From the NCBI GenBank assembly GCA_903813345.2, contig CAIIXF020000001.1, positions 31,660,556 to 31,724,555 on the forward strand: a stretch of DNA of 64,000 nt, in the 5' to 3' direction. The notes below the pieces were generated by a model that made no database searches, was not told where the DNA came from, and worked only from the letters and a program-made list of their open reading frames with translations. The DNA comes from Owenia fusiformis. Its lineage: Eukaryota; Annelida; Polychaeta; Sabellida; Oweniidae. This document shows positions 2,872-55,600 of this stretch, one piece after another. Numbering within the stretch: the stretch's first letter is position 1; every line of letters starts with the position of its first letter. Made by a program: the position numbers and the translations under genes.

Positions 2872-5430
2872 CACGGTGCCCATGTCAAGCTGCGCGCCTA
2901 CTTAGGCGCGCAGTTTGTTTCGATCACAAACTGCGTGCCTAAGAACATTGCATCATTTAAGTTGGAGTCTGTATTTTGAAACGTAATTTAAAGACATTTA
3001 TCCTGCATTGTTTTCTTGTTCAATGCGTTCATTCTGTGGCGAATATACGAATCTTGCAAATACTAGCAAAAACTATGTGCAAATGAATCTAAGTTTTAAA
3101 ACATAAGCATATTAATGGCATTTTCGTCACTGATTTAACGGGAATGTATATGATACGACGTCAGATACTGTACATCACGGCGTAACAGTGTAATTGTTCA
3201 TTTTACCGACAAAATGCAAAGATTTACGCGATAAATATGCGCAATGCTCCTCCAAGTAATTGCAAACGTTTTAATATTCGTGGAATCTTCTTAAAAACTT
3301 CAAGTTTTGTTCAGATTAATGTGCGCTTCAATACAATTCTGTATTCAAAAAGGTTGTGTCACGATATACAGAATTAGAATCACCAGAAAGTAGACATTTC
3401 AAACCCTACCCGTTTTCTTCTTTGTCGCGCTTTTCGGCCCTGCGCTCTCGTTGTTGCACCGTCTTTCTAGACTCTTTCACAATGCCCCTTGTCATATTCA
3501 ACTGATAAACACAGACGGGAAGATATTAAGGATTGTTAAATGCATTATTTGTAATTTATTTTAACTCGAATATTTAGTTTTATTTATTTAAAGCAATGAA
3601 TAATAAAGGAGAACATATAATACGCTAACGGCATAACGTCTTATTTTGTAAAGGCTTCACTTGGGGTTGCGGTGATAAAACGATGTCTATCTCAATATAT
3701 ACTGGTTCAAATTTAATGAAATTAATTGTATGTAGTAAGGGGTATATTTAAAAGAACATGCTGAAACATTGGAACGTTTTGAATGTTTATCCCTTAATTA
3801 GAAATATTTGAACTCAAAAAATGAAACGTAATTTTGTGAATTTTTCACATGGCTTCACTTCATATTTCTTTCAATTTATACTTCTTACAGACTGAATTTT
3901 AATCGAAATGATATAGTTTTTTGATAAAAATATAGAATATGATATGCCTTTCGGGAATCAAAAAAGAATATTTCACCTTTCAAGCGATTTAATGTTTGAT
4001 TGATCAAAATATATATCTTGTTGGTACGAAATTCTGCCTGTCGACACTTTTTTTGCATAAATATAAGCGTTAAGTTAGCATTGTTATATTATGACGTCAT
4101 CACACAGAATCTGTTTGTCTTTTCCAAAATGGTGAATTTAAATATTGTGAAAATTTGAGAAAGATCCGTTGGGAAATGAAAAAGTTATCTTCATTTTTCG
4201 TTAAAATTAAAATCACTTTTCTTCAAAATGTTACAGTCGACACCCGGTTTTAGCATAGAAAGTCGCATAGTACGGCTTGCGTGATTCTCATTTAAAAAGT
4301 CCCAAATCAGTTATTTGGAATTCCGATAGGCAAAATATTTCATGGACATACGTGTTCAACTGATGACGAAAAATTGTAGAAAATATGATTTTGCTGTCGA
4401 GATATTGCGGTTTTAAAAGTAAGTACGCATATAAAAATGCAGTAAAATGCCGCGATGTACAGTATCTGACGTCGTATCATATACGTAAATCGATCTAGCA
4501 CTTTAAACATAAATGACAAATACTTTAGTCTCGTTTTATATTTAATTCCTTACACATTTATCATTTATAATTCAAAATATTTCGAGATAAAACAGATAAT
4601 CAGGAGATTAAAAAGAAATGAATCACAAACTGCGCGCCTATTTTAGCCAGAAATTACAAACTGTGTGCATACACTATTAAAACTACATATTATCATTGGA
4701 ATTTCTACAGAGGCACGTGTAGGTGTTTTTCACGTAGCTTTGGAAATTTTACTTTATCGTCAGATTTTATGAGATTTTCATATTGAAAGTCAAAATGTAT
4801 AATAGAAGTGACAATTAAGTTGGGAACGAAAAAAACTTTTATTTTCAGATCACCATCTTGGTGGATGGACTCTCATAGTGTTTCAATTATAGGGTTCTAC
4901 TATTAGATACATATGTGCCTTGGTATGGCGCTTATGTTTTCTAATAATACAAAACAAGCTTGGATAGGCACGCAGTTTGGGAAATACATGTGAATATAGG
5001 CGCGCAGTTTGACAAGAAAAATGTTTAAATCACGTTTATGGCGTATTATCGTTTTGAACACAAACTTTGCTGATTTAATCAGATGGAGGGATCCTATATA
5101 TTCTAGCATACACAGACACAATGGCTGAATAAACGGCAAATTACGATAAAAAGACATAGATATAACTTTACACTGTAAATTTTGAACACAGAAGTTACTG
5201 AAGACCCTTATATTGAGATAACTAGGTTTACATCGGGAAAAACATTGAGTACTATGAGTAAATTAATTTCATCTTCACAGAATGGTACTATCTTTAGAAC
5301 GAGACTAACCTTGTATTTTTCGTATTTTGGCTCTTTTTGGGAGTCGTGTCACATTTTGAAATATGCACGCAGTTTGTCAGAGTTTCAAACCGCGTGCCTA
5401 GTAGGCACGCTGCTTGACATGGGCATCGTG
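2872..5430. mobile_element. Inverted-repeat DNA transposon, CAC termini, 5-bp TSD (element A)
   Basis: The left end starts CACGGTGCCCATGTCAAGC. The right end, reverse-complemented, starts CACGATGCCCATGTCAAGC. Both ends are flanked by TTATC (2867-2871 and 5431-5435), a 5-bp target-site duplication. GCGCGCAGTTTG-like words recur near the ends and inside (about 2903, 2927, 4625, 4970, 4998, 5366, 5385), as expected of subterminal transposase-binding sites. A second inverted pair inside (3145-3185 with 4445-4485, around ACGACGTCAGATACTGTACA) makes much of the 2.56 kb a fold-back. No transposase is visible, so the element is non-autonomous. Terminal CAC plus 5-bp TSD suggests the Transib/RAG-like superfamily; this is inferred from ends only. 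Confidence 0.8.
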
Positions 5431-5435
5431 TTATC

Positions 5436-6532: not shown

Positions 6533-6534
6533 TA

Positions 6535-7529
6535 CTGGGTGGTCCAACAAAAGTGAACCCCTGCAACTGGCCATATTTCCCTTATTACTTGCAGGAATTC
6601 TTTTTTATTTTCACATGTTGTAGAGGAAGGTCTAAAATTAATGTTGGTACCATACATTTTTCTTAGTCTTGAAATTTGCAGAAATTATAAGCCCTAACCA
6701 AACATTACTGAAAATGGACAAATTGTGATTTTCAATATCCGCGATTCTTCAACCCTTTAACACCTTTCCCCTGAGAATTTTTTAAGCTGCAGTCTTAAAG
6801 AACTTATATTTTCTGACCTTGCTCAATTTTAAATCCTGCACATTATGGCTTAAAACAAGCATTCTATATTTGTTAGTTGCAAAGTTATTGTGATCCAAAG
6901 AGATGTGCCAAGCTTCCACAGACGAAAACATTTTCCAGTGAAATCATGAACATACCCCTATATGATCTTGAAATGTCAATATCTTCATAAATCATGGACC
7001 AATTCTAATGATATATGGCTCAAAACATTGAATATTGAATTTTCTTTTGATTTTTTAAAGATATTTGATGAAGGGGTTATCAGATTCCTGGTCACAGGGG
7101 GCAACTTCCTTCCATAAGAGGCCCCCTCTAACTGTTGGTGAAGGTAACATACCCCTGAACTGTTGAACAGTTAAAAATGCTTCAAAATGATCAATGAAAG
7201 TGTTAAATGTGTTTTCTGCTTGAATGGTGTCCCCTTTGTCATATGGTAGGGTTTTAAACTTGTATCTCTAACTGAAAGCTGTTTAATCATCCAATGTGTT
7301 TCAACAATTTCCGTGAATCACATTTGTAAAATTTTGTACAATATCTAATTTCCAGGCATGTTTGTTAAACGCTTGTAATTTCTTCAAAATTTAAGACTGA
7401 GAATAAATTATGGAATCATCCAAAATTTTAGACCTTTCTCTACAACATGTGATAATATGAGCCAATTCATGCATGTATTAAGAAAAATGTAGCCTGTTGC
7501 AGGGGTTCACTTTTTTTTGGACCACCCTG
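6535..7529. mobile_element. Long palindromic Tc1/mariner-like non-autonomous element
   Basis: The ends are CTGGGTGGTCCAACAAAAG on the left and, reverse-complemented, CAGGGTGGTCCAAAAAAAAG on the right, each next to TA. Arms of nearly 200 bp pair imperfectly (6535-6720 with 7345-7529), including a shared stretch with CACATGTTGTAGAG. CAGGGTGG-type ends flanked by TA are typical of Tc1/mariner MITEs. No transposase is seen. Confidence 0.7.
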
Positions 7530-8074
7530 TACATATCTCATGGGAATGTATTTCCATCTACTCAAGATATTATATTTTAGCTTCGAAAATCACAATCGTT
7601 GGATAATACATTTGTCTCAGAATGATAGGCCACCCTGTAGCAATGTAGCTTTCACTTGAAGTGTACCCTTGAGAATAATGAACTTACTTTCAAATTGGTC
7701 TTGCTTTTGTGGTGTATGTGGCTTTTTAGCAAATCTGCCACGCTCATTTCTTTCCAGAACCATCATCTTGTTCAAATGTATCACTTTACGCGCATGTATA
7801 GACAGATGACATAGATATACATATAAATTATATATTGGGGAATATCCCTTTGGAAAAATGCAAATGCATGAACATATATTTTCATCTTATATATGACTTC
7901 AAGCTAATATATTATTTCATATTTATATTTTCATAGTTAGTTTAACATGAATAATAGATCCATGAGAACAATATTCTTTTTTTTAAATTGATGGGTTTAC
8001 TGTGAATTCAATAAATTACAATTTGCAAGGTGTAAGTATACTGTATGAGCTAGCTAGTGGCTTTGTAATTTATG
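7530..8074. other. Non-coding intergenic DNA
   Basis: No gene recognised; AT-rich with no bounded repeat apparent. Confidence 0.4.
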
Positions 8075-8077
8075 TTA

Positions 8078-8491: not shown

Positions 8492-8786
8492 TTAGTTCAT
8501 CCAGTAGTACGTTTTTACTGCAAAGTAGTGTTTTTATATGCAGCTTAATAGCATAAAATATGTTGAATGAAGCATATGGTGTGGATTAGTCGTGTGACAC
8601 ACAGACTGACCAATACATGAGGGTATTAGCTACTTTTCACATAAACCAAAGGAGGACAGTACTTTTATTTCAACTGGGAGCTTACCTCCACACGACTGAT
8701 CATGTGACCATGGTGGTGGTCCCCTTTAACACAGGTACCATTCAGACCCCATCCTACCACGAGACTGAACACGTTGTGTAGCCTCT

Positions 8787-11318: not shown

Positions 11319-14300
11319 CTGGAACAAAAATTGGATACATTTATAGTTAGATCTCCACATTTCTTCTTTCTTGTCATATTTCGAGGACTGTTGTCAGTAA
11401 ATTGGTCCAGGGATCAACGTTCTCTTTAATACAAGACCAAAACCCATCCATGCAACTGTATAATAATATACTACGATGTAAAAGTATCTATATAAGTACA
11501 TCAAAAAGAGTACACTGTACCTATTAATCCATGTCCAGTTCTGAGTTCATCATCTCTCAGATTGAAGCCAATATGTCTTTGGTACTTGATCACATCAATG
11601 TGCAATTTATTCCAAATATTCAATAGCAATCTATCAGGCTCCAGTTTAACGTGGACATAATTTGGCAAAGTTGTTTCAAAGTTATCTCCCCATTTTGAAC
11701 GCTCCAAAATGACACCTTTCACTTGTATATCATCATTTGTGACAACAATTTTGGTAGTTCGGACAAGTATTTCAATATTTTCGATGAGGTTAACTGTTTG
11801 AGTTCTTGATAAGTTCAGCAATGTAACTTTCACAACTATTCCTAAAAGAATATGACAATAAATATATTTAATCTTAGTAAATATAATAACTTGGCAAAAA
11901 GTAACAAATATCATCGACTCAAGCAATTTGGCGGACAACTGTATATGACAACCAATGTCAATCATTCCATTGCTTTTCAGTTTTCAGTTTTTGGCTGTAA
12001 AACCCTTATAATCAAAAATACGGTAAAATCGACCCTACAATTGTGGCAGCATTTAATTTGAAAACATAAATTCTGTACCCATCTAGGCATAAAATCCTTG
12101 GTATTCCTGGTATTCATTAATCGTTCATAATTATCACGGTCCACATCCCGCTCCGTATGATATGGTCCTTTCGTGTGCACAAGATCCGACCATACCGCCT
12201 CTATAGGGAGGAAATTCGGAGGTGGGTTTTATTATTAGAGTATTCTTTGAGTTTACATTTATACTGCGCGATTTAAATTGATAAATGTATGAATATTAAA
12301 TTGAAAAAAGTTGTCTAAGTATTTGAATGCTCAAAAACATTGGATTTATTTGTGGTGACGACATACATGCGGAGAGAGTGAGTTTCTGCTTCCTTATCGT
12401 CATTTACGTGTCAAATATACTACTTTGTGATATATTATGTAAATCAAATGAAGCCTTTGTATATATTGATCGATGAAATAACGCCAATTGAATGTTTCTT
12501 GGTATATACTGATTTTAAAATGGTCAAAAGCAAATTAGAAGAGGATCCGACTCTGCAGGTTAAATGTTTTGAATGGATCCGACCCACGCGCGTTTCTCTT
12601 ACGATCCTACCGTGTTTCATTTCCGACCCTACCGTGTTTTGAGCTCCATATTGTCGTGTTTAGAACCAATAAATACCATGAACATATTTTAAAGTTACCA
12701 TACTAAATCCATGGAAGTTAATATATCTATTACACTAGAGTCAGTGTATTAAAGCTCAATAGCTAATTATGGTTGTTTATCTTTTCTAGATGTCGTTAAA
12801 AGTGCCGATACAGAATGAAACGGACACTTATTTAGACGAAAATAAAAATGAACTACCATCGACATCCACACCCCAAAAGCCAACTTATTCTCATGAATTA
12901 TCCAGTCGTCCAAGCAGACCAGTTCATGTTGAAACGGATGGCATATACAAAAATAAATTATATGATACAATGATCGTATATGCATGCCAATTTGAATATA
13001 TTTTTTGTATACGTAAAACACGAATTGGTCGAATTTTTTCACACGAAAAGTTTTTTTCAGTTCATTATACATTTATTTCAAATTATATTGCAGTAAAAAA
13101 GTTACACAGGTCGCTGCCTAGCGCAATGTGCATTACAGGCTAGCGTTTTGGAATGAACATAAATCAAATTAATTGAGTGAGTTATACATAAAATTGTTCT
13201 AACTTAATGGTGAAAAGTATGTCAGAATAAAATGGGTAGGCCAAGCTAAGAATAAAATCAACGAGCCTTCCTTTTAATCGAGAATCCTGTTCAATTGAAA
13301 ATGAGTTTTTGAAAATTAAAAATTCAGTTTTATCTTGTTCAGTTAGATGGGTCTCAAGATTTTGCTGCTCAAGGGTTTCTTAAAGGTTTTTTCTTTGGGT
13401 TGAATGGCGCTTACATTGCATAATCGAGTGTTTAGGAGTTGTACTCTTACCACAGACAATTAGATAAGCTGTATTAGGGAAATCATGAGTAATCTTTTGT
13501 GATTCAAATTAGAGTCCGCATCTAATTCTAGTCTGTTCAAGGTAATTTCTTGCTTTCGAGAAAGATTAGAGTTTAGAAGTTGTATTGAAGTCATTAAACT
13601 TTCAAGATTTGTTTTTCATTTTACTTTTGAACAAAGAGATGGTGGGAATAGACTGGAGATAACCTATTCCATTCAGAGATCAATCTTAGCACTGGGGCAT
13701 TAATTAGTCGTGCAAAGAACACGAAAAGATGGAACTATTAACAGGACATGGTCGGAGTCCCAAAATTATCCTCACACGACTTGGTCGAATCCTAGCTGTG
13801 GTAGGGTCGGATCCTTCTATTCGAGTTTTAAACCACATTTTCATGTACTTTGTGATGTATTACGTCATGTTTGTTTATCAGTCGCACGCATTAATGCATG
13901 TACTTTATAAATTGCACGAAATTAGATATGTATACGGTAATATAAAAGAATTATTGCAATTGAAGTGTATTCTGTCGTGAAAAGTCTATGTTCGACCTAT
14001 TTTCACCTATGAAGCCTTGATATTTTTTTCTTGCTTTCTTCATGAATTCATAGGAAATTATGTTGCCTATAGTTAACCATTCACAAAATATCAAAATTCG
14101 CTCTGTTTCCTACTTTTTCCTGACATTTTGTCAATTTTGGCCTCTTTGTCTCACGAATGGATCGTATTCTAGCACACGAACGGACCATATCATACGGAGC
14201 GGGATGTGGACCGTGATTATACTTCATATTATTTTAAAGAAAACTTAAACTTCCAATAATATGGTCCGACCGTACAATATTGTCTGTATTTTAGAATGGA

Positions 14301-17300
14301 TTTAGGATGTAAATGCCATTCATCAGATCTTTTTTTATTAGAAATGAACCCTACCTCACAAATAGACCGATACATCATTTATGGGGGATTAAATTATAGT
14401 ACTCAATATTTCTTATACATATCATCATAAGAAATAAATATATTATCATTTCAAATTTCAATTTGGGTATTGTTTTTGCCCCCCCCCCCACTCCCATTTA
14501 CTTTGTTCGATGGGATGTTATACCTTACTTGTATGGTATTAAGATGCAGAAATGGATAATTTGTTTTGCAACACGTATATTTTGAAATCTATGTACCAGT
14601 TCTTATCATCTGGAATAAAATGTCAAAAGGATTCCGATGTCAATATGCAATCCTAAACGCCAAGAAATAAAAAGCCACAGACAGTTCCAACTCCAGACAT
14701 AATAGGTTAGAATGTCAAATTTTTAGCTCGTATTGTCACGCCAATTCCCCATGTAGAATGGAATATCATCTTACAAAATCATTTAGTACTACAATCGGAT
14801 ACAACTTGAAAACTACAACGTTAGCGAGTAGTATATCCCATTGAACAACAAGCTACCTGAAATGGTCATTATTAAACATTTATGGTTCTTATAGCACAAA
14901 TGTGAAACAAAATATCTCTGAAGCACCTGAATCATTAAAACGTTAAATTATTTTAAGAAATAAATGTTCAGCATTTCAATAAATTCATGACCCAACTAAG
15001 AATCAGCCAGAAATTAACATCACCAATATATATCAAAATGTGGCCGCACCTCATTGAAAAGATTTTTGCAATATTTATAAATCATTTTCATTTAGAGTTT
15101 ATGTAAAGAAAACCAATCTTCTGGTGTTTGGTGGACAGATGGACAGTTTATCTACATTCCAGAGAAATCCAATCGATAATTGGGATAATAATATGAGTCA
15201 GCTGATGCATAAGGGACAACTGGAAGTGTTAGGTAATTTCTGAGATGCCATGGCCTGAGAGAATGGAATTGATGACGTGATGAACACAACCAATTAGAGA
15301 ATCAATAATTCGGTATTACATATATTAACTAACTAACTGAATAACACTTATTCGAATTCACCCACTACACTTTCTACTATTAGACATTTGTGACGCACTT
15401 GGCAAAATTACCACCCATTTTTGTGTATATTTATTGCTTTTTATGTAAAGGATGTGCATTTCAGACTTTTACTCCATTCTTTTATGAATTGTTTGCTAGA
15501 AAAAGCCATTTTTGTACAATTTTATATTTTTCAATAGAGAATATATGATTCCACACAAATATTTTCAGAAAAATGATCGATTTGTGCCTCAACCAATTGT
15601 TCATCCATAGACTATAACTGAAAATTATTCACAAACTCTTAAAAAAGTTAGTTTCATTGTAATTCTAACATATTGTTTTGTGCATGCGTCAAACACTCTA
15701 GATACTATTAACAGATGCAAATTCTTAGTAGTCATTGATTCTTCAATTGAAGATGATCTTGGTTAGAGCGTCGATATTTAAGTTGATGCTAAAAGGGTTC
15801 TACTTGAACACAAATTGCGAAATGAGTGGGTCTAGATCTCTTTATGGGATTTTCAATTCTCTTATACTACAAAAAACTTAAGGTCACATTTACTTTAAGG
15901 CCATATGTTCACACTATCTAACAGAAGAGCAAATAATCATCATGTAATTTACCCAGCATACCCAAAATGTAATAGTCTACTCTTGCATCTGTGAAAATTT
16001 GTTTTGTTGTCTTGGATTTTGAAAAACTTTGATAACATCGTTTGTCACTATTGTGACCTTGTTCAATGACCTTGAACTAAAAAAACGTTCAGACCTAGGT
16101 AGGTCGTTTGTAATTAAGCTGACCTTTTAAATCTAAAAAATTAATCTAAAAACCAACTTTTTGACTCTTCAAAGGTCACTGAATGTCAACTAAAGGTCAA
16201 ATCTCAAATCTAAGGTCAGATTTAGCCGATTTATGATCACATTCTTTAGAAACTTGAAAGAAACATGATATTATGATATTCAAACGCTAGAAATCAATTG
16301 CAACAATATAATAATAATCATTGCTTTCAAATGTTAATAAATTCATTAAAATATATTTTAGGTTAACGTCATTGTTTACAGATATACAGTAACTAAACAA
16401 CATAATCAGGGGACAGAAACGCGTCCAGTATTTTCGTCCGGTACAACCGGAAATACTTGACGCAGACCTCCATTTTTGATCGAGAGAGAGGTAGGTGTAC
16501 TTTTAATTCTGTGATAGTTTTACAGTGTTTCATAATGCCTGGGTCACACTTGCTCCGATTCATCGGCCGGCGCCCGGCCAATTGAGTGTTTTGTTCAAAA
16601 TTGTATTCAGTTTGGAAAAAAATACTCAATCGCCCGGGCGCCGGCCGATGAATCGCTGCAAATGTGACCAAGGTATTACTTTACAACAGGCGTTTACAGT
16701 TTTACAGTGTTTCATTACTTAGCAGCAGGCTCATCAGATTCCCAGTATATTGAAGAACTGGATGGTGTATTTTTATTTCAGACACAAGAAAATGGCATAT
16801 ATTGTCTATTAAAGGGTAAATAAAAAGAAATATAACTCGATTGATTCGTGTATTTCGTAAAAAATCAAAATATTTCCGTGCTTAACCCCACATTACAGAA
16901 AAACTAGATCAAAAATGGAGGTCTGCGTCAAGAATTTCCGGTTGTACCGGACGAAAATACTGGACGCGTTTCTGTCCCCTGATAATGGTAACCCAAGATC
17001 TAGCAAATCTCTTGGGACATCTTTGCAAGTCATTAAAACACCAGCCTATCATTGGCAACCACTCGAGACAAAATGCTTTAAGTGTCATTTAACATTATAA
17101 AAATATAACAACAAAATCATTGGAAAAAATGACACAATAATTGGAAAATCACTATTTTAGAATTTCTATTACTGTGAGTATAAAATATGAACAATATCGT
17201 GTCAATAGTGTATTACATCATTCCTTTATGAATTGTTCGGATGGACCAAGATCTGTTTTCCACTGAAACTTTTGGGGTGGGATAATATTCGACTTAAAGG

Positions 17301-20300
17301 AAAAATTGATTTTCTTCATTATGTATATGTTATCACTACTATTTCATTCATAGTGTCAATTTCGGGTTCACATTTCTCTGAAATTATTGATTCTTCACTA
17401 TTTATTAAATTTTAAAATATATTCACACCTTTCTGATTTATGAGTTGATATATGGAACCACTGTGTCCAATAAGATCATAGCAAAAATATTCATTACTAT
17501 CCAATCCAAAGACCTGCTGCTGAATCTGAACTATACCATTATCTGAAATTATAGGAAAAGCTAGTGTATATATACAGTGTATGAATTATTACATATTGTT
17601 GCAAACAACTCAGATCGTATCAAGTCTGTGACCTTGACCCAGATATTCGGACCAACGAACAAATTATTCATGAATTTGAAATATGTCACAATATCACGCG
17701 GTCCTAACTTCGACCGTTTTTGACCTACCAGATGCTCGAAAATCAAGGATTGCGAGTCTCATACTGCACCGTTTTTCTTCAAACTTATACCATTAAAAGC
17801 AAAACAAAATTGCCTTTCTGTCGGTGTATTACTTTACTGTAAAGAGTCCCTCGTTCTAGCAGCGTTTTGGTCCCCAGCTGTTAGAAGGCCTTCTTACAGC
17901 TGGGGACCAAAATGCCGCTGGAAGTAGGGACTCTGTTTAAGAGAATAATGTACCAACAGAAAGGGATTTTTGTTATGCTTTGAATGGAACACGTTTGAAG
18001 GAAGACGGTGCAGTACGAGATTCGTAATCCTTGATTTTCAAACATCCGGTAGGTCAAAAATTCAAATTAATGGTCGAAGTTAGTACCGCGTGAATATATT
18101 TCAGTATAATATAGCCATAAATAAGGGATCTTCTAATTATTGATAATTTTTGTATGAGGCGACACTTTTGAATTTCTGAAATACAGATAAAATAAAATAT
18201 CTTCAGTTCGAGTATGATACATCCATACGTTAGCTTGAACTGAATATTGGAATCTGCTCTTGATGGAATACTTTTCATTTGAACTAGTGAGATAAAAATC
18301 ATACTTCAGAGAAATCTGAAAATCTATTTTTCTACCACCGTGCATGGCCTCTTTGGGCCAGCCCGAAAAACACAGGCAGCCATTTTTGATTGTACAACGC
18401 AGGAATCTGAAAATAGATACGATATTTGCAATCTACTTTAAAATTCCTCTCATTTGAATATGATAAAATCATACTTCAGAAAGATCTAAAAAGAATTTGC
18501 ACACTATCCCCTCCCCTCAGACACGGCTTTCGAAGGTCAGGCTGAAAAACACGGCACAATTGCAAATCATCAAGACCATAAAATATTTGTGATCTAATGC
18601 ATCGTACCATATTCTTGAAAAGATCTCTACATGATAGCGAATTCCCGCTTTCGGCAACCATTTTGAATTTTCTGAGGCACGAATTTGAGAAACAATACCA
18701 TGATTCAGAATCAGAAATATATTTATTTGGCATCTACTCTTATTTCCTTTTCATTTGAGTATAATTAATTTCAGAAAGATCTCAAAATTTCCCTAAACAT
18801 AGCCCCCTAAGGGTCATGCTGAAAGTCAGACAGACTGACGGAGAGACTAACAGACGAACAGACTGACAGACAGACTGGCAGAGGGCTTCACTATATCTCA
18901 TTCATTTGGATCATTTCATTTGGATATTGTACCAACCTATATATGTATGTACATATACTTGTAAAAAATCATTAAAACAATTACAATCCACCGAGTAGCA
19001 AATTCCACTATACAAAACGTATTTTATCAAATCACTAATCGCTATTTTGAATATTGTATAATAGTGTAACGACCCTGGGGCATGTCCGTCGGGGAGCTGT
19101 AGTGTACCTAGCCAGATACTAGACTCGAAATAGAGTGTGTTAAATTCAATGCCCCGTACGGGAATCGGACCAGGACTTTCCGCTCTCGAGTCAGACGCTC
19201 TTCCCCTGAGCCATATAGGTTAGCCACTACAGCTGAGGCTGTAGTAGCGAGTTGGTATCAAAGGTCATTACAATAAATATCACAAGGCAATGATTGTCTC
19301 CTTTTTGAAAATCTACACCCGTGACTTGATAGTACATGGTGAGCCAGTCATCCAGCATGGGACCAATGAAACTTATATAAATGTAGAATGAAAGAACATG
19401 GAACAAGGTTTAGTTGTGCCAAATATGATTTAGAATACATGCTGGATGACGGAATTATTAACATTTGTTTCGGTTACCCTTTTTGGCTCACCCTGTAAAT
19501 TTATTCTCAAACAGAGGTTCTATGAAGGCATTAATCAAACCCTACCCGATTATACTCCACAGAGTAGCAAATCCCACCGAACAAAACGTTTTGATAACTA
19601 TAGCGGCCTTCTTGACCAGAGTTCCTTTTCCCCTAGGTATCAGCATATAAAATTTGAACCAAATCCGTCAACTGGTATTTGAGTTATCAAAGATTATGTT
19701 TTTTTATGAAAAATGGTAGCCATTTTGAAATTCAGACATCTTGAACATCTCTTAGCAAAGCTCTTTTGTCCCTTGGCATACAAAATTTGAACCAAATCTG
19801 TCAACTAGTATTCGAATTATCAAAGATTACATTTTTTAAAATATGGTGGCCATTTTGAATTGAGCGACAATATCGAAAATTTCTTCTCAAGCACAGGTCC
19901 TACACCCATAACTTCGGCATGAGCCTATAAATTTTGAATCAAATCCGTCAACTTGTATTTGAGTTATGGCCCGGACGAACGAATGGACGGACAGATGGAC
20001 GAACGGTCAACTTCTTATATCTCCCTTGAACTGGGAAAATAAGACATTAGCCTTGAACTGAACCGGATAACAGGATTGAATTCAGTGGCGTTCTTGAATT
20101 TTCCTGTCTCCCTAGAGTCAATAAATAAAAGTTTAAAAAAAACCATCAACTAGTATTTCAGTTATTAGGATTACATTTTTTACGAAATATATATCTTGTA
20201 TTCAGCAGCCATATTGGTAATCCATTTTCGAGCAAATGTTTAGTACCAACCGATAAGGCACCAGTCTATAGATTGAAGATATTTAAGGACATAAAATTCC

Positions 20301-28666: not shown

Positions 28667-28685
28667 TTTACAGACTAGAAATCAG

Positions 28686-31620: not shown

Positions 31621-31626
31621 TTTATT
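31621..31626 (-). terminator. RPS21 poly(A) signal
   Basis: AATAAA on the minus strand about 70 nt after the stop codon, in context AGTAATAAAAGGCC. Confidence 0.8.
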
Positions 31627-34600: not shown

Positions 34601-37600
34601 ACATCTACAATACAAGTTCTGAATTTTGAAGAAATATGAATGCATTCTCAATGAAAAATATTAATAATATTTATACTGACCACATAAAAAGCTTAATTAC
34701 ATTCCAAAATCCAATTCAAAAGTTTTGATATCATAACAATTCAGTGTTAAACTGACAATATTTGAGCAATTTTGTAAGAAATATGTGATATTTGGTAAAA
34801 AGAGTTCAAGTTAGACAGGTTAATTTTTCAATTAGGTATGCTGATAACATTAGGTATTCACAATAGTCAGATGTTGGGATATACAGGTTTCACTGATGAT
34901 ATATCATTTATACAAGATGATGAACTAGAACTACTGTACTAGGTGCATTTGATAATTTTTACCACTATGTTAATACTATGTCAGGAAAAAAAAGCACCCA
35001 TGACACTTTGCTTGTACAACTTGAAAATCAACAACACTTTAAGATTTGATAAAGGTGTCTACCAAATGAGTAATCCACATAAATTCAAATACAAGCACTT
35101 GGCATGCTATTCCCTATGATGCTATTTATAGATTTTTAGTCAATGTTATTGATCAGCTTATTGGTTTCATTACTTTCTCTAGAATCTAAAATTGACCTTG
35201 GGTTTATGAGAGTAGTAAATTGGAATGCAGTTATATGAAGTATTGAATTGGCTGGAATTGGACACACGTTGCCTAGCTATGTGTGAGTAAACTATCATCT
35301 TATATGGATACAAACAGTTCGTTTGACAATGATCATCTATCTTATCTGTAAAATCAGAACTTAATAAGGGGTTTGAAATGGAGATCGATGAAACCATACC
35401 ACAAATTGATAAAACTTTCGTGATCGAAGCAGTGGCTATGACAAAAGGAAAATTAAGATTAACTTATATGTTGAAATTTGGAGAGTTTTGGAAAGCTATA
35501 TTTGACTACTCCATCAAATCTAGTAAAGGAGCCCAAAGCATAGATTTCATATTAGACTCCTAGTAGTCTCCATCAGTAAAGGATTCTGAAAGAATGCGAA
35601 GAATGGATGATTCCCTTACACAAATTTACTGGCTGTCTCCCCTACTGAACTTTATCCAAAGAAGAAATTACACCATTACCTAAAAATATGAATACCTTTT
35701 GGCCAAGTCATATAATACAAATTTTCAAAGATTACAAAGAAATTTAATAAAGCAGCATTCTAAAAGTGTGCCAAATGTCAAGATTGTCTGAAGTGGAACT
35801 ATTGGAGAGAACTTAAATATCTGTGAAAATGATAACTGAAATCCCCTGTTAAATTCCACTCTTGAAGAGGCTGATTTTAAACTTATTCACTCTGTTTTAC
35901 ATTCAGCAGGAGAACATGTGGGACTGCAGTAATTTGCATCAAATGACACTGATATTCTAATTTTATGACTATCATTTCAATTAATGTAAAAAATTCTTCA
36001 ACTGCTAGAAAATGTCATCTGCAAAGTCAGTATGTAAACATTTTCTACAATGTCTGTTTGTTTGAAACATATTGATCATATATATCACCATATATACTTT
36101 TTTGATCTACATGAAGATTTTAGTGGGACAAGACCCTTTTACCCTGGAGTTCCTAATCTCATTCCACTAACGGGAGTTTCTAGGCCCAGCGGGGTATGAT
36201 CCTTATAATCCTTATTTTCCCAAATAATTACTGTTGCCTGATGACAAGTTGTTTTATTGGGAGTGTAGTGATTATAATTTGATAATTTATAATAATATTT
36301 TGTATTAGGAGATGATCATTGCTTAATTACAGTATGGGCATAACAAAATATAGAGAAATCATGTTTCTTTTAATTAACCATGTCTTTATGTATTTTGACA
36401 ATGTAGAACATTACATCGAACATGTTGATGTGAAAAAGTAAAAATGCTATATCACATAATAAATATCATCAAATAATAATTAATTAGTTATAATCCATTT
36501 AATCAATCAATTACTACACTGTATACGATATCCCTGAGAGCAGTTACACTTTAGGGGGAGGGGGGATTTATTACCCTCTCACCCCCTTAGGAACTCTAGG
36601 GTAAGGTCCTCAACTCTAATGATTTTTCTGTTAACAATGCTTGTAACATGGATCAAACCTGACAACAATATTTCAAACATCTAATTTCTCGCAATACCTG
36701 AAATCGTAAAGGAGGACTGAAAGTATCGCAACAGATTAAGGACAGTCACATGTTGGATTTTTGCTATTTTCTGAGGATTTAAGGAGGTGCATATGTTAGG
36801 CCAATGCATTTCCTCAAGGAAAAGCACTCATAGAGATAATAAAATAATTTCTATTTGAGACAGGGTGCAAACAACTCACCCACATGCATCAATATGTTGT
36901 GTTTTGACACACAGTTAACCCCTTTAAAGAAATAATGCATTCCATCAGGGGTTTAAAAGATATCAAATAGGGGTGACCAAAATTAAGCTGAAAGTAATGG
37001 AGCACATGAGTTTTCCCTATGGGAAAATAACAAGAAAATATTGTTTTCTGCTTTATCTAAAAGAAATTTATTATTCCTTTTTATGGGTTAACTATGTCTC
37101 AAAACGCAACATATTGATGCAACAAAAATTGAAAAAGCAGGGGTGAAAGGGCTTGAAAATCAGGACAACATTTCCGAAAAAACATGTGGGTGGATTGTTT
37201 GCACATTCGCTGTCTCAAAGTCCAAACTATTTTATCATCTCTAAGAGTTCTTTTCCTGTAGGTAATGCAATAGCCTATCATATGCACCTGCTTAAATCCT
37301 CAGGAAACATACAAAATCTAACATATGACTGTCTGAAATATGTTGCGATACTTTCCATGCTCCTTTGAGACCTGATATTTCTCAATTTTTCAAACATTGC
37401 ACTTGTTAAAATTCTTAAACTTCCTTAAAATTCATCTTCGGTATGTTTTACTTCTTAGTTTCACACTCTAAAAATATATGTTTCATCATAGAGGTATGGA
37501 TGAAAAAAAGCCATAAGGGTCATCCATGGCTATACCTAACATTCGTAAATTTGAAACCTTATATTCACAATTTTTCAAATTTTGGACTTGTTTAAAATCT

Positions 37601-40600
37601 TTTACTTCCTTAAAAACCATCTAAATTATGTTCTACATCTTTAGTTCCATACTACAAAACCATAAATATCACCAAAGAGGGATGGATTTAGAAACTATAG
37701 GGGTCGGCCATGGCTATACCTGGAATTCGTAAATTTGAAACCTTATATTTACAATTTTTCAAATTTTGGACTTGTTTAAAACCTTTAACTTCCTTAAAAC
37801 CCATCTAAACTATGTTTTACATCTTAGTTCCACACTATAAAACCATAAATATCATCATAGAGGGATGGATCTAGAACCTATAGGGGTCGGCCATGGCTAT
37901 ACCTGGAATTCATAAATTTCAAACCTTATATTTACAATTTTTCAAATTTTGGACTTGTTTAAAACCTTTAACTTCCTTAAAACCCATCTAAATTATGTTT
38001 TACATCTTAGTTCCACACTATAAAACCATAAATATCATCATAGAGGGATGGATCTAGAAACTATAGGGGTCAGCCATGGCTATACCTGGAATTCATAAAT
38101 TTGAAACCTTATATTTACAATTTTTCAAATTTTGGACTTGTTTAAAACCTTTAACTTCCTTAAAACCCATCTAAATTATGTTTTACATCTTTGTTTCACA
38201 CAATAAAACCATAAATATCATCATAGAGGGATGGATCTAGAAATTATAAGGGTCAGCTATAGTCATACACAAAATCCAGCTGTCAAAAATGTCAAATTTT
38301 TCGAAAAATCAACAATTTTTTTCTCAGCTCCTACCTCTTCCATGGCTTTGCATCTTTTAGGGTTACTAACCCTGCTATTGGGCACTTCACATGAATTTTT
38401 CCAACCTCTTACAGTGTCTAATTGAAAAGTTAGAATCAAAATAGTAAGAAAATGAGTCACGAATTTGCCCCCTGGGGTACATACTTTGTACTAATTTTAA
38501 AATTCTTTAGGAGTTATCAGCATCAATTATACTGCAAGTGATTCATATATATAATATATATGTATGTCACTTACAAACATCAAAATATCTAAGGTTATTT
38601 AGTGTGAACAATTTTTTCCCCAGGGTGGGGTGTTTTTGGGGGGTGGGGGGCTAACTCCTCAAAAAAAAGAACTTCCTACCACTCTGTGAAGCTATCACCT
38701 AGGTGGAAGTTTCATCCAAGACTCTCCCCTAACTGAAAATGCTGCCAAACCAACTATACACCATTTATTGAGAATTTTCCTCCTCGCCCCTTGAGTATTA
38801 AATACTTTATGAGTCCAGTGTAATTCTGACAGGTTTGAATAAAGCGTCATACCCAGTTTTATACCCTTTGTCCTCAACGAAATTAAAATTCATTGTTGAG
38901 AAAATACAGGTACATGTACATCTGAATTGAAAATTTGGGTGATGTTTGATTGAAATTTATCTTTATTAGTGTCATCATCAGTTAACACGTACATGTTTGT
39001 TTTATGTGTTCATCATTTAGTAAAAATTGTCATGACATACATGTCTACAAATATTCTTGTCAATCCAGTTAGTGTTATGATGGTTGGACAGAGTTTGTCC
39101 AAGGTGCTCTAATATATACATGTACACTATGTTCCATGTTAATATTGTTAAGTGCATGAAAGCATTTTAGAAAAACAAGTGTAATTACAAAAGATCTTAA
39201 AATGCTTTAAGAAATGATAGAGTATGAGAATGCGCAATTTTGAAAAACGCTTTCCACAAAGACGCTTTAGAGTTATTTTTAGTGTAATTCCAGTAATTAT
39301 GTCTTCCAGGAAGCAATCAGTTCAAACACTAACATGTGTGGGATATCAATTTATTCATTAGTCATGCAATAGGAGGGAGACAAATACATTAGATAACCCA
39401 CCACAATTTTTAAACTATTATCTAACCAATATAGTATTACTTCATGTCTACATCTATTGATATATAGAGAGTTGCACCTACCTCAGCCAAGTTGAGCTGA
39501 ATTGAGGCATGATCTTTAGCTGTGATGATTCTGTTGCTTGCAGAGCTAAAATCATTATACAAAATATATAACAAATGTATATCATTCTAATATAGATTTA
39601 CATATCAATGTACAATAAAATCAAACACACCATAATGTGACAAAATATCACTATCTGTTTGCAATTGAAGAATTGAAATGACTTACAGTTAGACACCACA
39701 TATCAAAATAAACAAAATTTTACTTTTAGTAGGAATATTACACACACCAGTAATGAATATTTATGAGAACAATGTAATATTAGAAGATCACACTATTTCC
39801 TAACATGTTTGAAAGTGCACAATAATTTTTTTTCAGCCCAAAAAGCTGATATATTTTGGATTATTCTAACCTATGTAGTCTTGATTTGATTGACATGGGT
39901 GAATGGTCTACTCTGCATTTCAGGAGTGTAATGAAACTTTTAACATAGTTCTAGATTTTATCACGCCTAACCATCGACAAGGTACAGTGACAAAATATAC
40001 CGTAGTACACTTTACATGTGTAAAAAATAATCTGAGGAATACATTAGAATTTCATTTTTTATTTTTTTGTGTATTCGTTTAGGACATCCTCCTAAACAGG
40101 TGTTCAGAATCCGTACCTCCTTCTTCCCCCTGCTATAACCAATTTGGACGCGCCCGATTTAACTGAATCACATGATCTAATTATGCGCAATGACTTATAC
40201 ATGATTTCTATCGCAGTGTTGCGACAGCCAATCAGATTGCGAGTTCTTAATTGGGGAAATGGTAACTGCTTATCGCAGGGGGTAAAAAGAAGCCCTGTGA
40301 TCGGAGGATGGTTTAGGAAGACATTTAACTTTCTAATAACGTTAAAAGATTTTCGAACAGTGCTTGATTTTTTTCGAGGTTAATCTACCCACAAAAATTG
40401 ATCGATTGGAAAATGTTGAGTTTTTCACATTTCCTTTGATCATTTTTTCCCCTGTCGCCCAAGAGTGTCGATTATTATTACATTCGAGTTGACAACGTAC
40501 ACTTATGCTGAGGTTTCATTAACGGCGTCCTTCAATGGAGAGGACGTAAATCAAGATTGGGTGGACGTAAATTAAAAAAATAATTACGTTTTTGGGACGC

Positions 40601-46600: not shown

Positions 46601-49600
46601 TTTAATTTTCTTTGAAAATGTGACTTTTAGTGGACATACAGTGTATTCTTAATCACATGTATATAATTATCAAGTTGAAAAAGGTTATATGAAAATTGCT
46701 GGAGCAACTCCCTTCCCCTCTGGCCAAAAATCATGTAGTTTTTCACCATTCTGAGTGCTTTTCAAGTGACTTTTGCCATTTTGGGGACATAGTTCATTGT
46801 CAAAAGTGAACCCCTTCCACTGTTAATCTTTGGCAGGTGCTGGCTTGGGGCCTGCAGGTCTAGGATCATAGCCATCTGTTTGTTATGGCAAAATAGACAT
46901 AATTACCAATGGAACGTTTTCATGTTAATGAACTGAACTTGGAGAGATAAGGTAGAGTTCATGATTTGGTCTTGCATACTGAATGTGCTTAATCTATTGA
47001 AAGTACAAGTTTAGGGGGCCTTTTTCTTTATCTGCCATTGCCTGCCATGTTATCTGACCCGAATTAGCCACCTGGTTGGAGGTGAAATCGATAACTACCT
47101 ACTGGCACCTTGGTAATTGAGTCACAGTATTGTTATGTCACCAATACAAGTGGCCAGTGGATGGTGTCTGTAACAAATGGCAGGTGGTGACATTTTGTAT
47201 CTTAATGCCTTGTCGAAGTTTACCAAAGTCAGTTGTGGTTTGAGGTTTTGTACATGTATACTCTGCCAGAAAGTATGAAACATATATAGTCATTTTAAAA
47301 ACCTTTGAATTGGTTCTAAATAATGACTTTAGGGCTTACAGTAATATGTCATTGTATTGTATCAAAATAAAGAGGATGTATTTCTTAGCTTTATATGCAT
47401 GTTTTCTTTCTTTCCATAACTGCCATGAGTTCTTTCACTTTCATGGTCACTCTAAAGTATAAAGTTATCAGGATACATTTTAATTTTAGTGTATAAAGAA
47501 TACCATACTGCGGAACAACTTCTTCATCGTTAGATCACAGACTGTTATACTAACCAAGCAGAAGGTTGAGGAGTTCTACAGGGATCACAAAGGTAACCCA
47601 CTACACTGGGGATCTGGGGGGGGGGGCTTGGGGGGCCGGGCCCTTGGGTGGGCCCAGAAAAAAAATTGGGGCCAAAAAAGCCTTAAGGCCCCAAAAAGTG
47701 GGCCTTTTTTGGTCATTACTGGGCCTTGTAAGGCCTAATTTTAATTTTAGGCCAAATTTTGAAGAAAATGGGCCTCAAAATTTCAACATTTTTTCTGGTC
47801 TGAAAATTTGGGCCCCCCCTTGATGATTCCCAGATCCGCCCCTGCACTCCCTGCACTACATGTGCATATATTGACAATAGGTTTTAGCTTATTATTTTGT
47901 ACATTATAGAAATAATTTGAGTGGCACACCCTCTCAAGATCCCCTCAATATTTCAATTGTGGCAGCCACCATTGCCTCAATTCAATTTCACTTCCTTAAT
48001 AAACAGCTAACTTACACAACTGGTCTATTACAATGTTACAAGCATTCTTTTCTGAAAATAAAGCCTAAAAAATTCAATGCTTCACATTTTGGTATTTTTT
48101 CTCCACCTGTCTTTCTGTCTGTCTGTCCATTTGTCAACAATTTTTTGACAAATGAGAACTCTATTTTCTGAACTAATGTATACAGGTCAGGCTGTCCTAC
48201 TGTCCCGCAATTTGCGTATTTGTCAAGCATTTGCTTCAAGAAATTGAAGTCACGCCCATTTTTTGTGTGACAGAATATGTCACTCAAATATACATTTTTC
48301 TGATTATGGTCAAGCAAAGATATTTCAAGAGAACATCAAAAAAGTAAGAGTATATTTTAGCCTAAATCCCACAATGATTTCATAATTAACTATGAGCCTA
48401 TTGATCATATTCATTGTATTATGTGGGTGATACTTATTTATGATATTCATATATTTGACCTACTTTTGCATTCTTTGTGATGACCTAATTTAATGAATCG
48501 TATACATTTATGGAGCAATTATGTTGTTACTATTATATGAGTTCTACTTGATACATGATTTTTGAATTTGACCTACATGATGTACACACGCGGTAGTATC
48601 TCTTCGGGACGTATCGAAACCACTCCGTCCCGAAAAACCGTTAATTTGAATTTAAAACCTACCCCAGTGTTTGAAAATCAAGGATTGTGAGTCTCACACT
48701 TCACCGTTTTTCTTCAAACTTGTTCCGTACAAAGCTTCACAGAAATACCTTTCAGTCGATACATTGTTTTCGTGTACAAAGTACCTCGTTTTAGCGGCGT
48801 TTTGGTCCCCAGCTGTGAGATAAAGCAAATTTTCATAACTTTCAACTGTAAGTCAAGTTATCTCGCCAGTCTTTTACCCATTCTCGCCCATAATTTCAGA
48901 ATGGACTCCCATTACAAGCTTCCATCGCTACGTCTTGATTTTTGGGCATCAAACGCAGCAGTTTCTAAATCATCCACACATCTCTTCAAATTTGACCAAT
49001 ACGCCCCGTCATCTTCCACTACGCCCCGCCGAGTCTATCACTATACACGTAGAGTTGCATTCTAAAACAATTTGTCCATCGATGTGTCCGTTTGTAGGTT
49101 GCCATTGTCGATTCTAAATACCAATCGGATTGTGTTTTAAGATTTACCCATTCTTGTCCATTTTCAATATACCTATAATCGGGTGGTCCAAAATCTCCCT
49201 AAAATTTAGATTTCCCGATATTGCAATATAAAGATTTTAATTACTGAACAATTGAAAATATTTTTAAGAAACGTTTAAAGTGCCCTATCCTTGAAAAAAT
49301 GTTAAAATGCGAAAGGATGAGTGATGTCAATTATATTATTTTCAGCATAACGTTAGAAACATGTATCATTTTATATGGTACACGTTTCATAATGTAATCC
49401 AATGGAATCATACAGAAGAAAGGTTGACACACAACAGTTTCCCGATGGATTAAGCTAAAAAAGTGGTGCCTGTAGGGTTATTGAAAATCATACATGATGA
49501 AGAAAAAATACATATTCCTGAAATACAACAGTTTAATTTTGAGTTATAAACCATTTATGAAAACGGCATATTTGTCAAAATTACCAAAACTTCAAGTGAG

Positions 49601-52600
49601 ACGCGTGGCAAAATTTCCCAGGGGTCTAGAGTGGAAATATTTGTACCAAGAGTCAATTTGTAACTAGAATCTATCAGATGACAGATTTTTGGAAAATTTT
49701 GCAGATTTGGACAACCCTAACCTATAACTTTGTTGAACCTGAAGAAACGTATCAACTTTTTGTTAAATAAACACACACCCACCGGTGTAAAAGCGTAGGT
49801 GGTCCTATCAAATTATGGTCCTAGTCTCTATTGATTTATATAATGGTGACCTGATTACAATTATTTTCCTTATTATTTATACACAATCAGGGCCAGAAAG
49901 GGCCGTTAGGAAAGGGGACCATAATCCCCAGGGGACCATAATTTCTTTCACACCCGGCTTTGTTAGTACTTTGCCTTGGATGTCATACAGTACATTTACA
50001 CTGTGGCATGATGATGAACTTAGAAAATATGTATAGTCATGACAAAATGTTCTTTGTGATATAATATTGTATAGTATCATTCTGATACGTATTACATGTT
50101 TATGTTTAGTGCATAAAATTCATAGCCAGATCAATAATTCGGAGAGAATACGCTGGACGATAGAATATTAAAAACTATAAAAACATTCTTCATAGAATTA
50201 AGCAAATAGTGTTATTATAATTTAAGTAGTAACTGCATATGTTTAAAACCACTCTGTTTAAATACAGGTAAATAAATAAATATGATGCAATAAAAATTGA
50301 AGCTTTCTGTCGAGAGCAATAGTCATCAAAATAGAAAAAACGGAGCGAAAATATTGAAAGATGACCGAGACAATTGAAAAAAAGGACAAAGTACTGGATT
50401 TGACCTAGTTCTTGACCTTTGGCCTAGATAAAAATTTGACACCATTTCTTACCAACTAGATACTGTACCTTAATTGACCATATAATTGTCTTGAATAGAT
50501 ACTTTGTAGTTGTTGAGAAAACGTGACCAGTAAAAGAACAAGAATAAGAATAAACAAAAGAGGCAAAAACAAAGATGTTCCCCTTCACCAATGCAATGCA
50601 ATCATTTTTCACAATGTTTAATGCATTACTTAAGGAATGACCAAACTTGCTGTTATTTTCGCCATTCCCAGGTGTGATGTCACACAATACATGCATATAG
50701 ATTCCTTGAAGCAGATTCAATACAGCACGGTCTTGCCTACAGTATATGGAGAAATAATGAACGTTCATTATTGGATATGCTGCATTCTGATTGGTTTAGA
50801 AATTCAAATAGAGCACGGTCATGTTTGAATATTCTTTATTTTGATATCAATGAGTTATTGAAATGAAAACTGAACTCTCTTAAGATGAGTGTTGACAATG
50901 TTATTTCCCCGTTTAGAAAAACAATTGGTTTCAACTCATTTTGGTCATCCAAATTCAGTATCTTTTAAGTCACTATATCCACTATATTCAACTTCTAAAA
51001 TAATCAACGGAACCATTCGGAATACTTTTATCTTAGAAAGTTAATAAACATAGTTTGGCCAAATGCATAGGTGGGGGACAAAGTGAGTTTTAAAGTATTC
51101 ACCTCCACATAGCCTTGCCCAAGTCGGTCTCTTTTACTTATTTTGATTTCTATTATTAATAATTCAAGATCAGATAAGTAAAAAGATATCGACTTAGGCA
51201 AGGCTAACCTCCACAGGGTAATGAGAGTCTCTTGATGTGGAGTTGTAGTGTGGTGGTCTCATTAATGGAGACCTTGGCCCCTTCCCTCTGGAGGTCCTTT
51301 ATTTTCTGTACCGTTATCCCAAAATGGTGGGACCTATACTTAAATCCCCCGACTTCCTCCCTGAGATATCGTTTATGCACTTTAAGGTCCTGTGTGAGGT
51401 ACCGTCTCATTTCATGTTCTATATAACACGTTCGATTTGATTATCCCCGGTGTTGCAGTAGTAGCACTTAAACATATGTATCATAAGATGCCGTTCAAAA
51501 AAAGAAATAACACATATACATTTCTTTGATTGATTATCAATAGCTAAACATAACCGTTTCGGTTACAAGTGTATTCAAATGCGTGACCGTTGTCGTATTA
51601 TCATCAATTCGTATATGTAACCAAAGCGAGGGATTAAATGGGCGTTCCTGTCATCCTACAAACTATTTCGATTAAAATCACTTGGTTGTCCAGAAAGATA
51701 TTTTGCTTATCCATATTTCGGCCGAAAAGATCTGGATGATTCGTGCTGTATCTCGAGATATCAAGGAAAACGAAAATTCTTACCGATTTCTTCAGCCGGA
51801 ACAGCAGCCATCTTGTTACCAAAACGATTCGTTTTGGTAACCAGCGTAATCGAGCGGATCACCAGTGAGTATAGCGTTTTTTCTTTTACATGTTACTTTT
51901 TGTACATCATTGATTGATCCGCTCTAATCTGCCCTCGGCCGATAATTTATAAATTATTTATGTTGAACATTAGCAAAACAGGATTCCAGATTATATTGTG
52001 TTTCAAACCAGACACTTGGTTTCCTCACAAAATCAAATACAGGATAATAACATATAATTAAAGTTAAAAAGCAACATCTTCACAAACATTTAAATTATCA
52101 ATTTCATGCAATCAGTTATAGTTATACTCCGTATGTATGCTAAACTTAAGACTGGTGTTAAGAATCGACCAAGGCAAACCTATGTAAAATTACACATCGA
52201 TGAACAAAATGTTTTAGAATACAACTCCACGTTTGTAGTCATAGACTCGGCGGGGCGTAGTGGAAGGTGACGGGACGTATTAGTCAAATTTTAAGAGATG
52301 TGTGGATGATTTAGAAACTGCTGCGTTTGATGCCCAAAAATCAAAACGTAGCGATGGAAGGTTGTAATGGGAGTCCATTCTGAAATTATGAGCGAGAATG
52401 GGTAAAAGACTGGCGAGATAACTTGACTTACAGTTGAAAGTTATGAAAATTTGCTTTATCTCGCAGCTGGGGACCAAAACGCCGCTAAAACGAGGTACTT
52501 TGTACACAAAAACAATGTATCGACTGAAAGGTATTTCTGTGAAGCTTTGTACGGAACAAGTTTGAAGAAAAATGGTGAAGTGTGAGACTCACAATCCTTG

Positions 52601-55600
52601 ATTTTCAAACACTGGGTTAGGTTTTAAATTCAAATTAACGGTTTTTCGGGACGGAGTGGTTTCGATACGTCCCGAAGAGATCCTACCGCGTGGTACACAT
52701 ACCTTTTGAAACATGACCTAAATTTAAAGATGACTATGAGCTATCACCATGGGAATCCACCCAATGGTGCCATTTTTTAATAATCGTGATACATTATCAT
52801 CACCTTATAATGGAATCATTTCTTCAAGATAAATGCCCTAGTTTTCAAAGGTAACTGAACAGAGATTAATTCAAGAAAAATATCCTTTTTTTCAAATGTA
52901 AATGTTTGATGTGCATTCGGATGCCATTAATTTACTTTATTTAATCAATATTGATACATTTATGATAAGAATTAATCACTTATTGCATTTTAAAACTTTG
53001 GAATCCACTATACAATAACAAGGGTGATAAAGATTAATGAAGAAACATAAGCATTAAGCCCACTTCAGACCTAGAGCAATGTCTCTTAAATAATATTTAA
53101 ATTGCTCTGAATGATAGAAATGACAAAACATTGTGGTTTCATTAGCCTATGGGATGAATCTGCAAAACCTAAATGATAGAAATAACAAAACATTGTGGTT
53201 TCATCAGCCTATGAAACAAATCTGCAAAACCTTGACATACTTTTATTATGACAGTATGAACCCAACGTTTCTTTGGTTCTACAATCAAAATAAATATCTA
53301 GTATACATGCAGGCCCGTAGCCAGGGGGGGTTCGGGGGGTTCGGACGAACCCCCCCTGGCCAAAATTTCTTTCAAAATCATGGAGTTTTTCACCATTCTG
53401 ACTAATTTTTGAGTGATTTTTGGCCATATTTGCCAAAGTGAACCCCCCCTAGAATTTTTTAGAAAAACGAACCCCCCCTTGGAAAATTCTGGCTACGGGC
53501 CTGACATGTACATATATATGACAAATATATGACAAATTGATAGTTATTAATTCCATGTTAATTTCTCAATAGTGAACCATAATGTATTTTTGATCTAATT
53601 TGATGATAAAATCAATTATCTTATGGTTAAAGTTAATAGATTTCTAACACAAAGGCTGGTATCAAAAAATTTGTCCGCTGTGAAGGAGCATGTTATTTTT
53701 CATAAAAAGACTAAGAAAACCACAAAATTTATTTTTAACTCATGCTTTTCATTATACCAAAGAAAATTACTTACTCCATGCAATTCTTTTGAAAAGCATT
53801 CCTTGTTCATAGATTTTCCCTACAGAGGGGTATTCCATCGGACAGGTTTTACTGTATATCAATTCATTACGTAGGTGATCGTTCAGTCACCCACCTATCA
53901 CATTGAAGTGACAAATGCGGGATATATGATATGCTGTAGTTACAAGCTCTTAGACTTTTACCTGCGTGCATGTCATTAATAGGATACACATACACATTAC
54001 TTTAATTGAAATATATATAGAAAAACTATCTAATTCCCATTGCAATTTGAGATTGGCTTTTTCTCAAATGTACTTCCTGTGTCATTCTCATGTTTACCAT
54101 TTATTTTAAAAAATACTTTGGTCAAGGAAGTGGCTTTACAATTGAGCAATCTGTCTGCATGGAGTGTTTAAGGACTACACAGAATGATGCCATTTTCTTG
54201 TTTTTCTATTCTAATGAAAACATATATCATCTTTGATTTTCAATAACTTCCATTTGATCAGATCAGATATATTAATTCCTTTATTAAAATATAGAATGAG
54301 GATTGTAAAATTGAAACATTTGCATTCTTTTTGAATATTGTGTCCAACATTTTACAGTCTCTTTTCTTTACTGCCACTTTAACTTCATTGGATGACAAAA
54401 TCATTTATTCAATGTGGTTAGACTACGAGTGTTACAGCTGTGAAAGAAGGAGGAGGGGTGAGAACTCATCAACTTTGAGGCAAACTGCTTTACTTAAAGT
54501 TTCATATTGCCCTGCTCAGTTGAAATAGACCTTATCTGAATCTAAATTAATGATGAATTAATTTTTCCAATTAATTTTTCCAGGAAAATTCTTCCACAAC
54601 AGACTTGTAACATTCATGCAAAGGTAAGATCAATAGATCATTCCCCACTCTATACTCTACATGTGTGCTTCACAGAATAAGTGCGTGTAGAAATAATTTG
54701 AATCTCCATGGCAACTCTTCATATACAAAATTAAAATGTACATGAACATGCAAAGGTGTGATATTAAAAATATTTATCAACTTTGAAATGTTGATATAAA
54801 TTTGATATCCCATGGGCTACATATTCTCTGTGCATTATTGTTTCATTCTTTGCATCATTGTTATGCCACAAAAATAGCAAGTCAATATTATGATTTTTGT
54901 TCCAGTGGTCCTGTGAGTGCACATGTACTGGCCAGGCAGGATGCTATCAGTCATTGGAGGAAGATAATGGGACCAACTAAAGTATTCAGGTACATACTAG
55001 GGATTTTAAGATTAGCATAAATAGCCAATCTACGCATACCTACATGTATACTAGTTTGTTATTGCACTAAGCGGTATTTTACCTAAGTTACAATGTTTGC
55101 AATCCATAATTACATGTATTTTTATGAATCAATTTTTGTAAATCCTGCTTGTACTCAGTTGATTATGTTTATTGTACACTTTTATATTTGTAAAGATTAT
55201 TATTAATTCACAAAATATGTATTTTTTCAGAACAATATTCAAAGAACCGAATTCTATCCGAGGACAGTATGGTTTGACAGACACTAGGAACTGTGCACAT
55301 GGCTCTGGTGAGAGGCCTCCTCAGGGCAAGGGTCAACATAAAATGTGTTGTTTTATAAAAGTAGTTTCATTAGGCATATTATGGGTATATATTGAACATG
55401 TTATGGCTTACTTGTTGTTTCAAAGGACCAGGTGTTGTATGACTTGTATGGGAAGTGATTTTAGACGGTCATATCTTTCCCCATGAGTACTTTCTGGCCA
55501 TAAATACAGTTGTTTGTATTAAAACAATATGTTTTCTTTCAAGTGAAGTCCCCATAATGATAAAAATATCAATCAAACAATTTGAAAAATTATGAATAGG

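Follow-up and report, generated by a model that had tools for sequence, protein, structure and literature searches.

What moves transposons that carry no recognizable transposase of their own? The question is raised by a 64,000-nucleotide stretch of the genome of the annelid Owenia fusiformis (assembly GCA_903813345.2, contig CAIIXF020000001.1, positions 31,660,556 to 31,724,555 of the forward strand), hereafter the window. Four inverted-repeat elements lie in it, numbered 1 to 4 from left to right, and an initial annotation had taken them for four distinct non-autonomous families of a Transib/RAG-like superfamily. They are non-autonomous DNA transposons: they are multi-copy, have terminal inverted repeats (TIRs) and a target duplication, and the copies scanned contain no recognizable transposase. 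They form three families of CAC-type elements, and it is rather probable that a DDE transposase whose gene lies elsewhere moves them in trans, cutting its target with a stagger of 5 bp, and sometimes of 6 bp.

The CACG start, the CGTG end and the perfect 5-bp flanking repeats are base-exact in all four elements (Table 1). The overall range given for them, 2872-52697, is also correct as to coordinates, except that its end counts the last duplication, while element 4 itself stops at 52692. The two ends of element 1 are unlike each other (CACGGTG and CACGATG) and are one or two bases away from the V(D)J heptamer, CACAGTG, with which families 2-4 agree at CAC only. Among CACG..CGTG pairs of the window that are separated by 100-12000 bp and agree in at least 12 of their 15 terminal bases, a 5-bp duplication is found in these four elements only; two pairs have one of 2 bp, and none has one of 3, 4, 6, 7 or 8 bp. 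No pair with a 5-bp duplication appears in 30 first-order Markov windows, which rules out a chance origin of the pattern.

The anatomy of the elements reduces four families to three. Pieces of some 120-180 bp from elements 3 and 4 align at 77-81% identity, which makes element 3 a small relative of element 4, of foldback form, and not a family apart. The terminal repeats of element 4 are about 540 bp long and 94% identical to each other, and the element holds some 1.5 kb absent from copies L004 and L005. Element 1 is a 1.23-kb copy of family 1 enlarged by a nested 1329-bp element, whose empty site is matched in L009 and L011, with no match in L012.

Table 1. Coordinates of the elements and target duplications, in window positions or within numbered loci (L).
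Feature	Position	Strand	Evidence
Family 1 element, CACGGTG..CATCGTG, interrupted by nested element	2872..5430	.	ends and TTATC duplication
Target duplication TTATC, 5 bp	left 2867..2871, right 5431-5435	.	flanks family 1 element
Nested 1329-bp TIR element, unrelated to family 1, TATA duplication	3151..4479	.	empty site in L009 and L011
Family 2 element, 44-bp TIRs, CACGGTC..GACCGTG	12135..14215	.	ends, TIR alignment
Target duplication ATTAT, 5 bp	left 12130..12134, right 14216-14220	.	flanks family 2 element
Element 3, 398-bp foldback relative of family 4, CACGCGG..	17695..18092	.	172-nt arms
Target duplication AATAT, 5 bp	left 17690..17694, right 18093-18097	.	flanks element 3
Element 4 (family 4), long TIRs, CACGCGG..CCGCGTG	48587..52692	.	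ends, TIR alignment
Target duplication GTACA, 5 bp	left 48582..48586, right 52693-52697	.	flanks element 4
CAC-ended element, ends CACGGTGTATAACCCA, 5-bp duplication	L007:597-1874		paralogous empty site
CAC-ended element, ends CACGGGGTACCATCGA, 5-bp duplication	L004:287-1857		paralogous empty site
CAC-ended element, ends CACGGGATACTAGAGT/CACGGGTAACTAGAGT, 6-bp duplication	L005:1088-2567		paralogous empty site
CAC-ended TIR element, 5-bp duplication	L041:1241-1792		
CAC-ended TIR element, 5-bp duplication	L042:166-751		
CAC-ended TIR element, 5-bp duplication	L051+L054 joined (C8 locus) 6850-7698		
RAG1-related multi-copy element	L051+L054 (C8), L055+L053 (C1), L052 (C4)		

In the host genome (498 Mb, 525 contigs), TIR pattern searches find 536 termini of family 1, 50 of family 2 and 259 of family 4, and the reversed control patterns of all three find none. 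The first 100 places were inspected for families 1 and 4 and all 50 for family 2, terminus pairs being matched up by hand from the places listed. An exact 5-bp duplication flanks 21 of the 22 family-1 pairs among the matches listed, and all six elements of families 3/4, of which two lie in the window and four were fetched. Family 2 mixes two lengths: its 18 pairs, window copy included, comprise eight with 5 bp and four with 6 bp, so that the 5-bp rule read from the window extends to copies of families 1 and 3/4, but only in part to family 2. A further family-2 element, L019, has the 5-bp duplication AATTA. The duplications contain 14-17% G+C, against 34% in the window, and the target preference of family 1 is a symmetric ATWAT. 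Where different copies align they are mostly 90-99% identical, and the families are thus rather recent. Family-1 elements usually measure 1.22-1.27 kb among the pairs listed; the 6.7-kb copy L009 owes its unusual length to a retrotransposon sitting within it (integrase zinc-binding and SCAN-like gag domains).

The stagger itself can be read from interrupted copies. Copies of families 2 and 4 are interrupted by three more CAC-ended elements (in L007, L004 and L005), and the uninterrupted targets in other copies show AGTCT, TGTAA and ATGTAA only once, corresponding to staggers of 5, 5 and 6 bp, respectively. This empty-site evidence covers the three sister elements and not the four window copies. 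Across 349,419 bases read, the outermost CAC-ended TIR pairs (n=70) have a 5-bp duplication in 14 cases and a 6-bp one in three; a single pair has 3 bp, another 4 bp, eight have 2 bp, 43 have none, and no pair has 7 bp or more. These bases are stretches fetched around transposons and include several copies per family, so the 14 five-bp cases are not independent; the groups represented are family 2, families 3/4, and the elements in L007, L004, L041, L042 and the C8 locus. Family 1 is left out of this tally because its ends differ at base 5.

Near the CAC end lie subterminal palindromes, such as CTGCGCGCCTACTTAGGCGCGCAG in family 1 (window 2872-2931), and also at 48587-48646 and in L041 and L007. 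Folding z-scores for the two ends are -4.8/-3.5 in family 1, -2.2/-1.7 in family 4, -4.0/-2.8 in L041 and -2.2/-0.1 in L007, and about zero or positive in several other elements; by this measure no hairpin is seen in family 2, element 3, L004, L005, L042 or the C8 element. As a unifying feature the hairpin fails: it is pronounced in family 1 and L041, of medium strength in family 4 and one-sided in L007. A fifth TIR element of the window (16407-16981; 5-bp duplication ATAAT, ends CAGGGGACAG) also has strong subterminal hairpins, and is possibly hAT5-like.

Pfam was searched with all six frames of four copies, namely those of families 1 and 4 in the window, L006 of family 2, and a 10-kb copy of family 4 over most of its length. 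Nothing rises above the curated cut-off, the sub-threshold hits being DUF1265 0.88, DUF6970 0.15, HARP 0.075, DUF7912 0.051 and PT 0.33. A single-frame check of family 2, on one frame of the window copy and one of L006, gives no match either. Several candidate autonomous copies proved to have no recognizable transposase: eight of the 14 family-2 ends without a partner, followed inward for about 6 kb, the one atypical family-1 end that was read, and the 10.2-kb and 6.9-kb copies of family 4. With termini in such numbers, silent reversed controls and no recognizable coding content in the scanned copies, the description of these families as non-autonomous stands.

The enzyme must then be sought elsewhere. 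Longer elements with the same ends encoding a Transib or RAG1-like transposase were looked for genome-wide and none was found, in searches of limited sensitivity that ran without a Transib positive control. The RAG1 Pfam profile has no match at E<=0.001, but since it scores HzTransib itself only weakly (E 5e-5, 22 bits, under the model cut-off), it is no strong test for Transib. The HzTransib sequence brings up no candidates, and a Transib-like query sequence brings up one, with no match at E<=10. A degenerate catalytic-helix pattern matches 33 times, against 27 for its reversed control, and the nine of these 33 that were read contain no Transib-like frame.

At E<=10, the RAG1 model does reach three loci (E 1.12, 1.24 and 1.24; open frames of 729, 359 and 726 residues) that are about 99% identical over their common parts. 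RAG1 is the only family that hmmscan finds in the frame (E 0.0013, 17.4 bits, cut-off 25), and 15 of the 17 PDB sequences at E<=10 are RAG1 or RAG1 fusions; the best has a whole-sequence E of 4.5e-4, made up of two colinear pieces, neither significant singly. A BLASTP comparison of the transposase with HzTransib has no significant match (best E 0.62). The element measures 5.34 kb and has 24-bp TIRs, and no target duplication is visible in its two delimited copies; it is possibly a RAG1-related lineage without target duplications. As the mover of the window families it was a strong candidate, but its ends, beginning CATATCGAGATTTT, are different. Because these loci score only E ~1, a search at ordinary thresholds can overlook transposases related to RAG1 in this genome.

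Which superfamily the mover belongs to has to be judged from the ends and the stagger. Transib and RAG-like (RAGL) transposons have CAC ends and make 5-bp duplications (PMC7204232, PMC4411706). However, CAC..GTG ends are also a hallmark of Chapaev, whose duplications are of 3-4 bp (PMC4079192), and the wider CACTA-Mirage-Chapaev-Transib (CMCT) group has CA..TG ends with duplications of 2-5 bp (PMC12730594), which leaves the duplication length as the one feature pointing to Transib. That the families are of Chapaev or EnSpm type (CACTA), with duplications of unusual length, is unlikely: the termini agree with Chapaev and Transposase_21 genes are present in multiple copies (15 matches at E<=0.1), but the window families and their sister elements have 5-6 bp, and the five Transposase_21 loci read display no end like the TIRs of families 1, 2 and 4. 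Two of them, L045 and L046, have defined homology ends (CCCCGGCG, right end CCCCGGCGAAATG), the others showing no clear ends; the L045/L046 element has a 608-residue frame and nine copies listed, and must be very recent, since two copies are 99.99% identical over 8 kb. A CACGGTCTCCATG stretch beside a Transposase_21 gene (L048:2203) has no partner end within the 14.5 kb read. To hAT-type elements of the hAT5/hAT6 kind we give little credit. These two kinds make 5- and 6-bp duplications (PMC12730594), as family 2 does, hAT is abundant here (138 matches), and a hAT6-like, hAT-related element (L038:1074-5013) has the 6-bp duplication CGGATG; yet that element ends in CAGTG (CAGTGATGTTGATA), and of the eight hAT loci read, the two others with clear ends (L032 and L034) have TAG ends and 8-bp duplications, none of the three having CACG. 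Moreover, none of the 138 hAT places falls within elements of family 1, 2 or 4 TIR pairs, among the pairs listed. P-like transposases (13 matches, six loci read) show no clear ends, and the TIRs of the three families are not seen there. No autonomous relative of another transposase type was found with family 1, 2 or 4 ends.

A genuine non-autonomous Transib or RAGL origin, the gene being absent from the assembly, lost or missed by the searches, is doubtful, although better placed. The published pattern of ends and duplications, the closeness of family 1 to the heptamer and the fact that a RAG1-related gene can escape detection all argue for it. Against it are the empty Transib searches, the lack of any RAG1 Pfam match at E<=0.001, the catalytic-helix pattern doing no better than its control, the limited heptamer fit of families 2-4, and the 6-bp duplications in four of the 12 duplicated pairs of family 2. 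The targets are A+T-rich, unlike CCAGG, a printed duplication of TransibSU (PMC4411706), and the protostome RAGL TIR consensus, CACTWMCAAACKTYKBB (PMC7204232), does not fit CACGGTGCCCATG, CACGGTCCACATC or CACGCGGTAGTAT of the window elements beyond CAC. The Transib/RAG-like assignment of the initial annotation was therefore reasonable and is partly supported, by the CAC ends and the mostly 5-bp duplications, but it is undemonstrated. A literature search, which cannot speak for absence from print, noticed no matching published family. It is also improbable that the families come from different superfamilies and are alike in CACG and 5 bp by convergence: their TIRs are unlike beyond CACG, those of family 4 are long and foldback whereas those of families 1 and 2 are short, and only some families have the hairpins, but the duplications of groups with unlike TIRs cluster at 5 bp and, next, at 6 bp. 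There is a modest chance, finally, that the mover is a CMCT enzyme of a lineage of its own, distinct from both Transib and RAGL, which makes 5-/6-bp duplications at targets resembling ATWAT and mobilizes as many as nine CAC-ended groups, three of them recognized by genome-wide copies, three by empty sites and three by single copies with TIRs and a duplication.

The reading we prefer is transposition in trans by a DDE enzyme. The transposase would recognize the CAC ends and cut the element out, and the excised element would be joined to an A+T-rich target, the two strands being cut 5 bp, or sometimes 6 bp, apart; repair of the gaps after joining would then leave the target duplications. Such cut-and-paste movement by a DDE enzyme is inferred, and the enzyme may be placed in the CMCT group because of the CAC ends. 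Several observations weigh against this reading: one of the 22 family-1 pairs among the matches listed and six of the 18 family-2 pairs have no duplication, no autonomous copy of any of the three families was found, and the placement in the CMCT group is based on nothing but the terminal CAC and the duplication length, with no transposase linking the families.

Elsewhere in the window, a large inverted repeat (33103-38798) has 987-nt arms that are 93% complementary, with 183-bp tandem repeats in both. Host animal-type exons are found on the minus strand at 61353-62490 and 27172-27438, encoding a thrombospondin type 1 domain, a transmembrane stretch that matches a semaphorin-4F tail below threshold, and a Sushi repeat.

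The window elements are ordinary in kind. If the enzyme that moves them is a Transib or RAGL transposase, non-autonomous relatives of the RAG ancestor have multiplied greatly and rather recently in this genome, and they would help in learning what rules govern the recognition of ends. If another CMCT enzyme is at work, CAC ends with 5-bp duplications, which are taken to mark relatives of Transib and RAG, are not specific; and should that enzyme belong to a separate CMCT lineage, a RAG-like 5-bp stagger with CAC ends would not be unique to the Transib/RAG branch.

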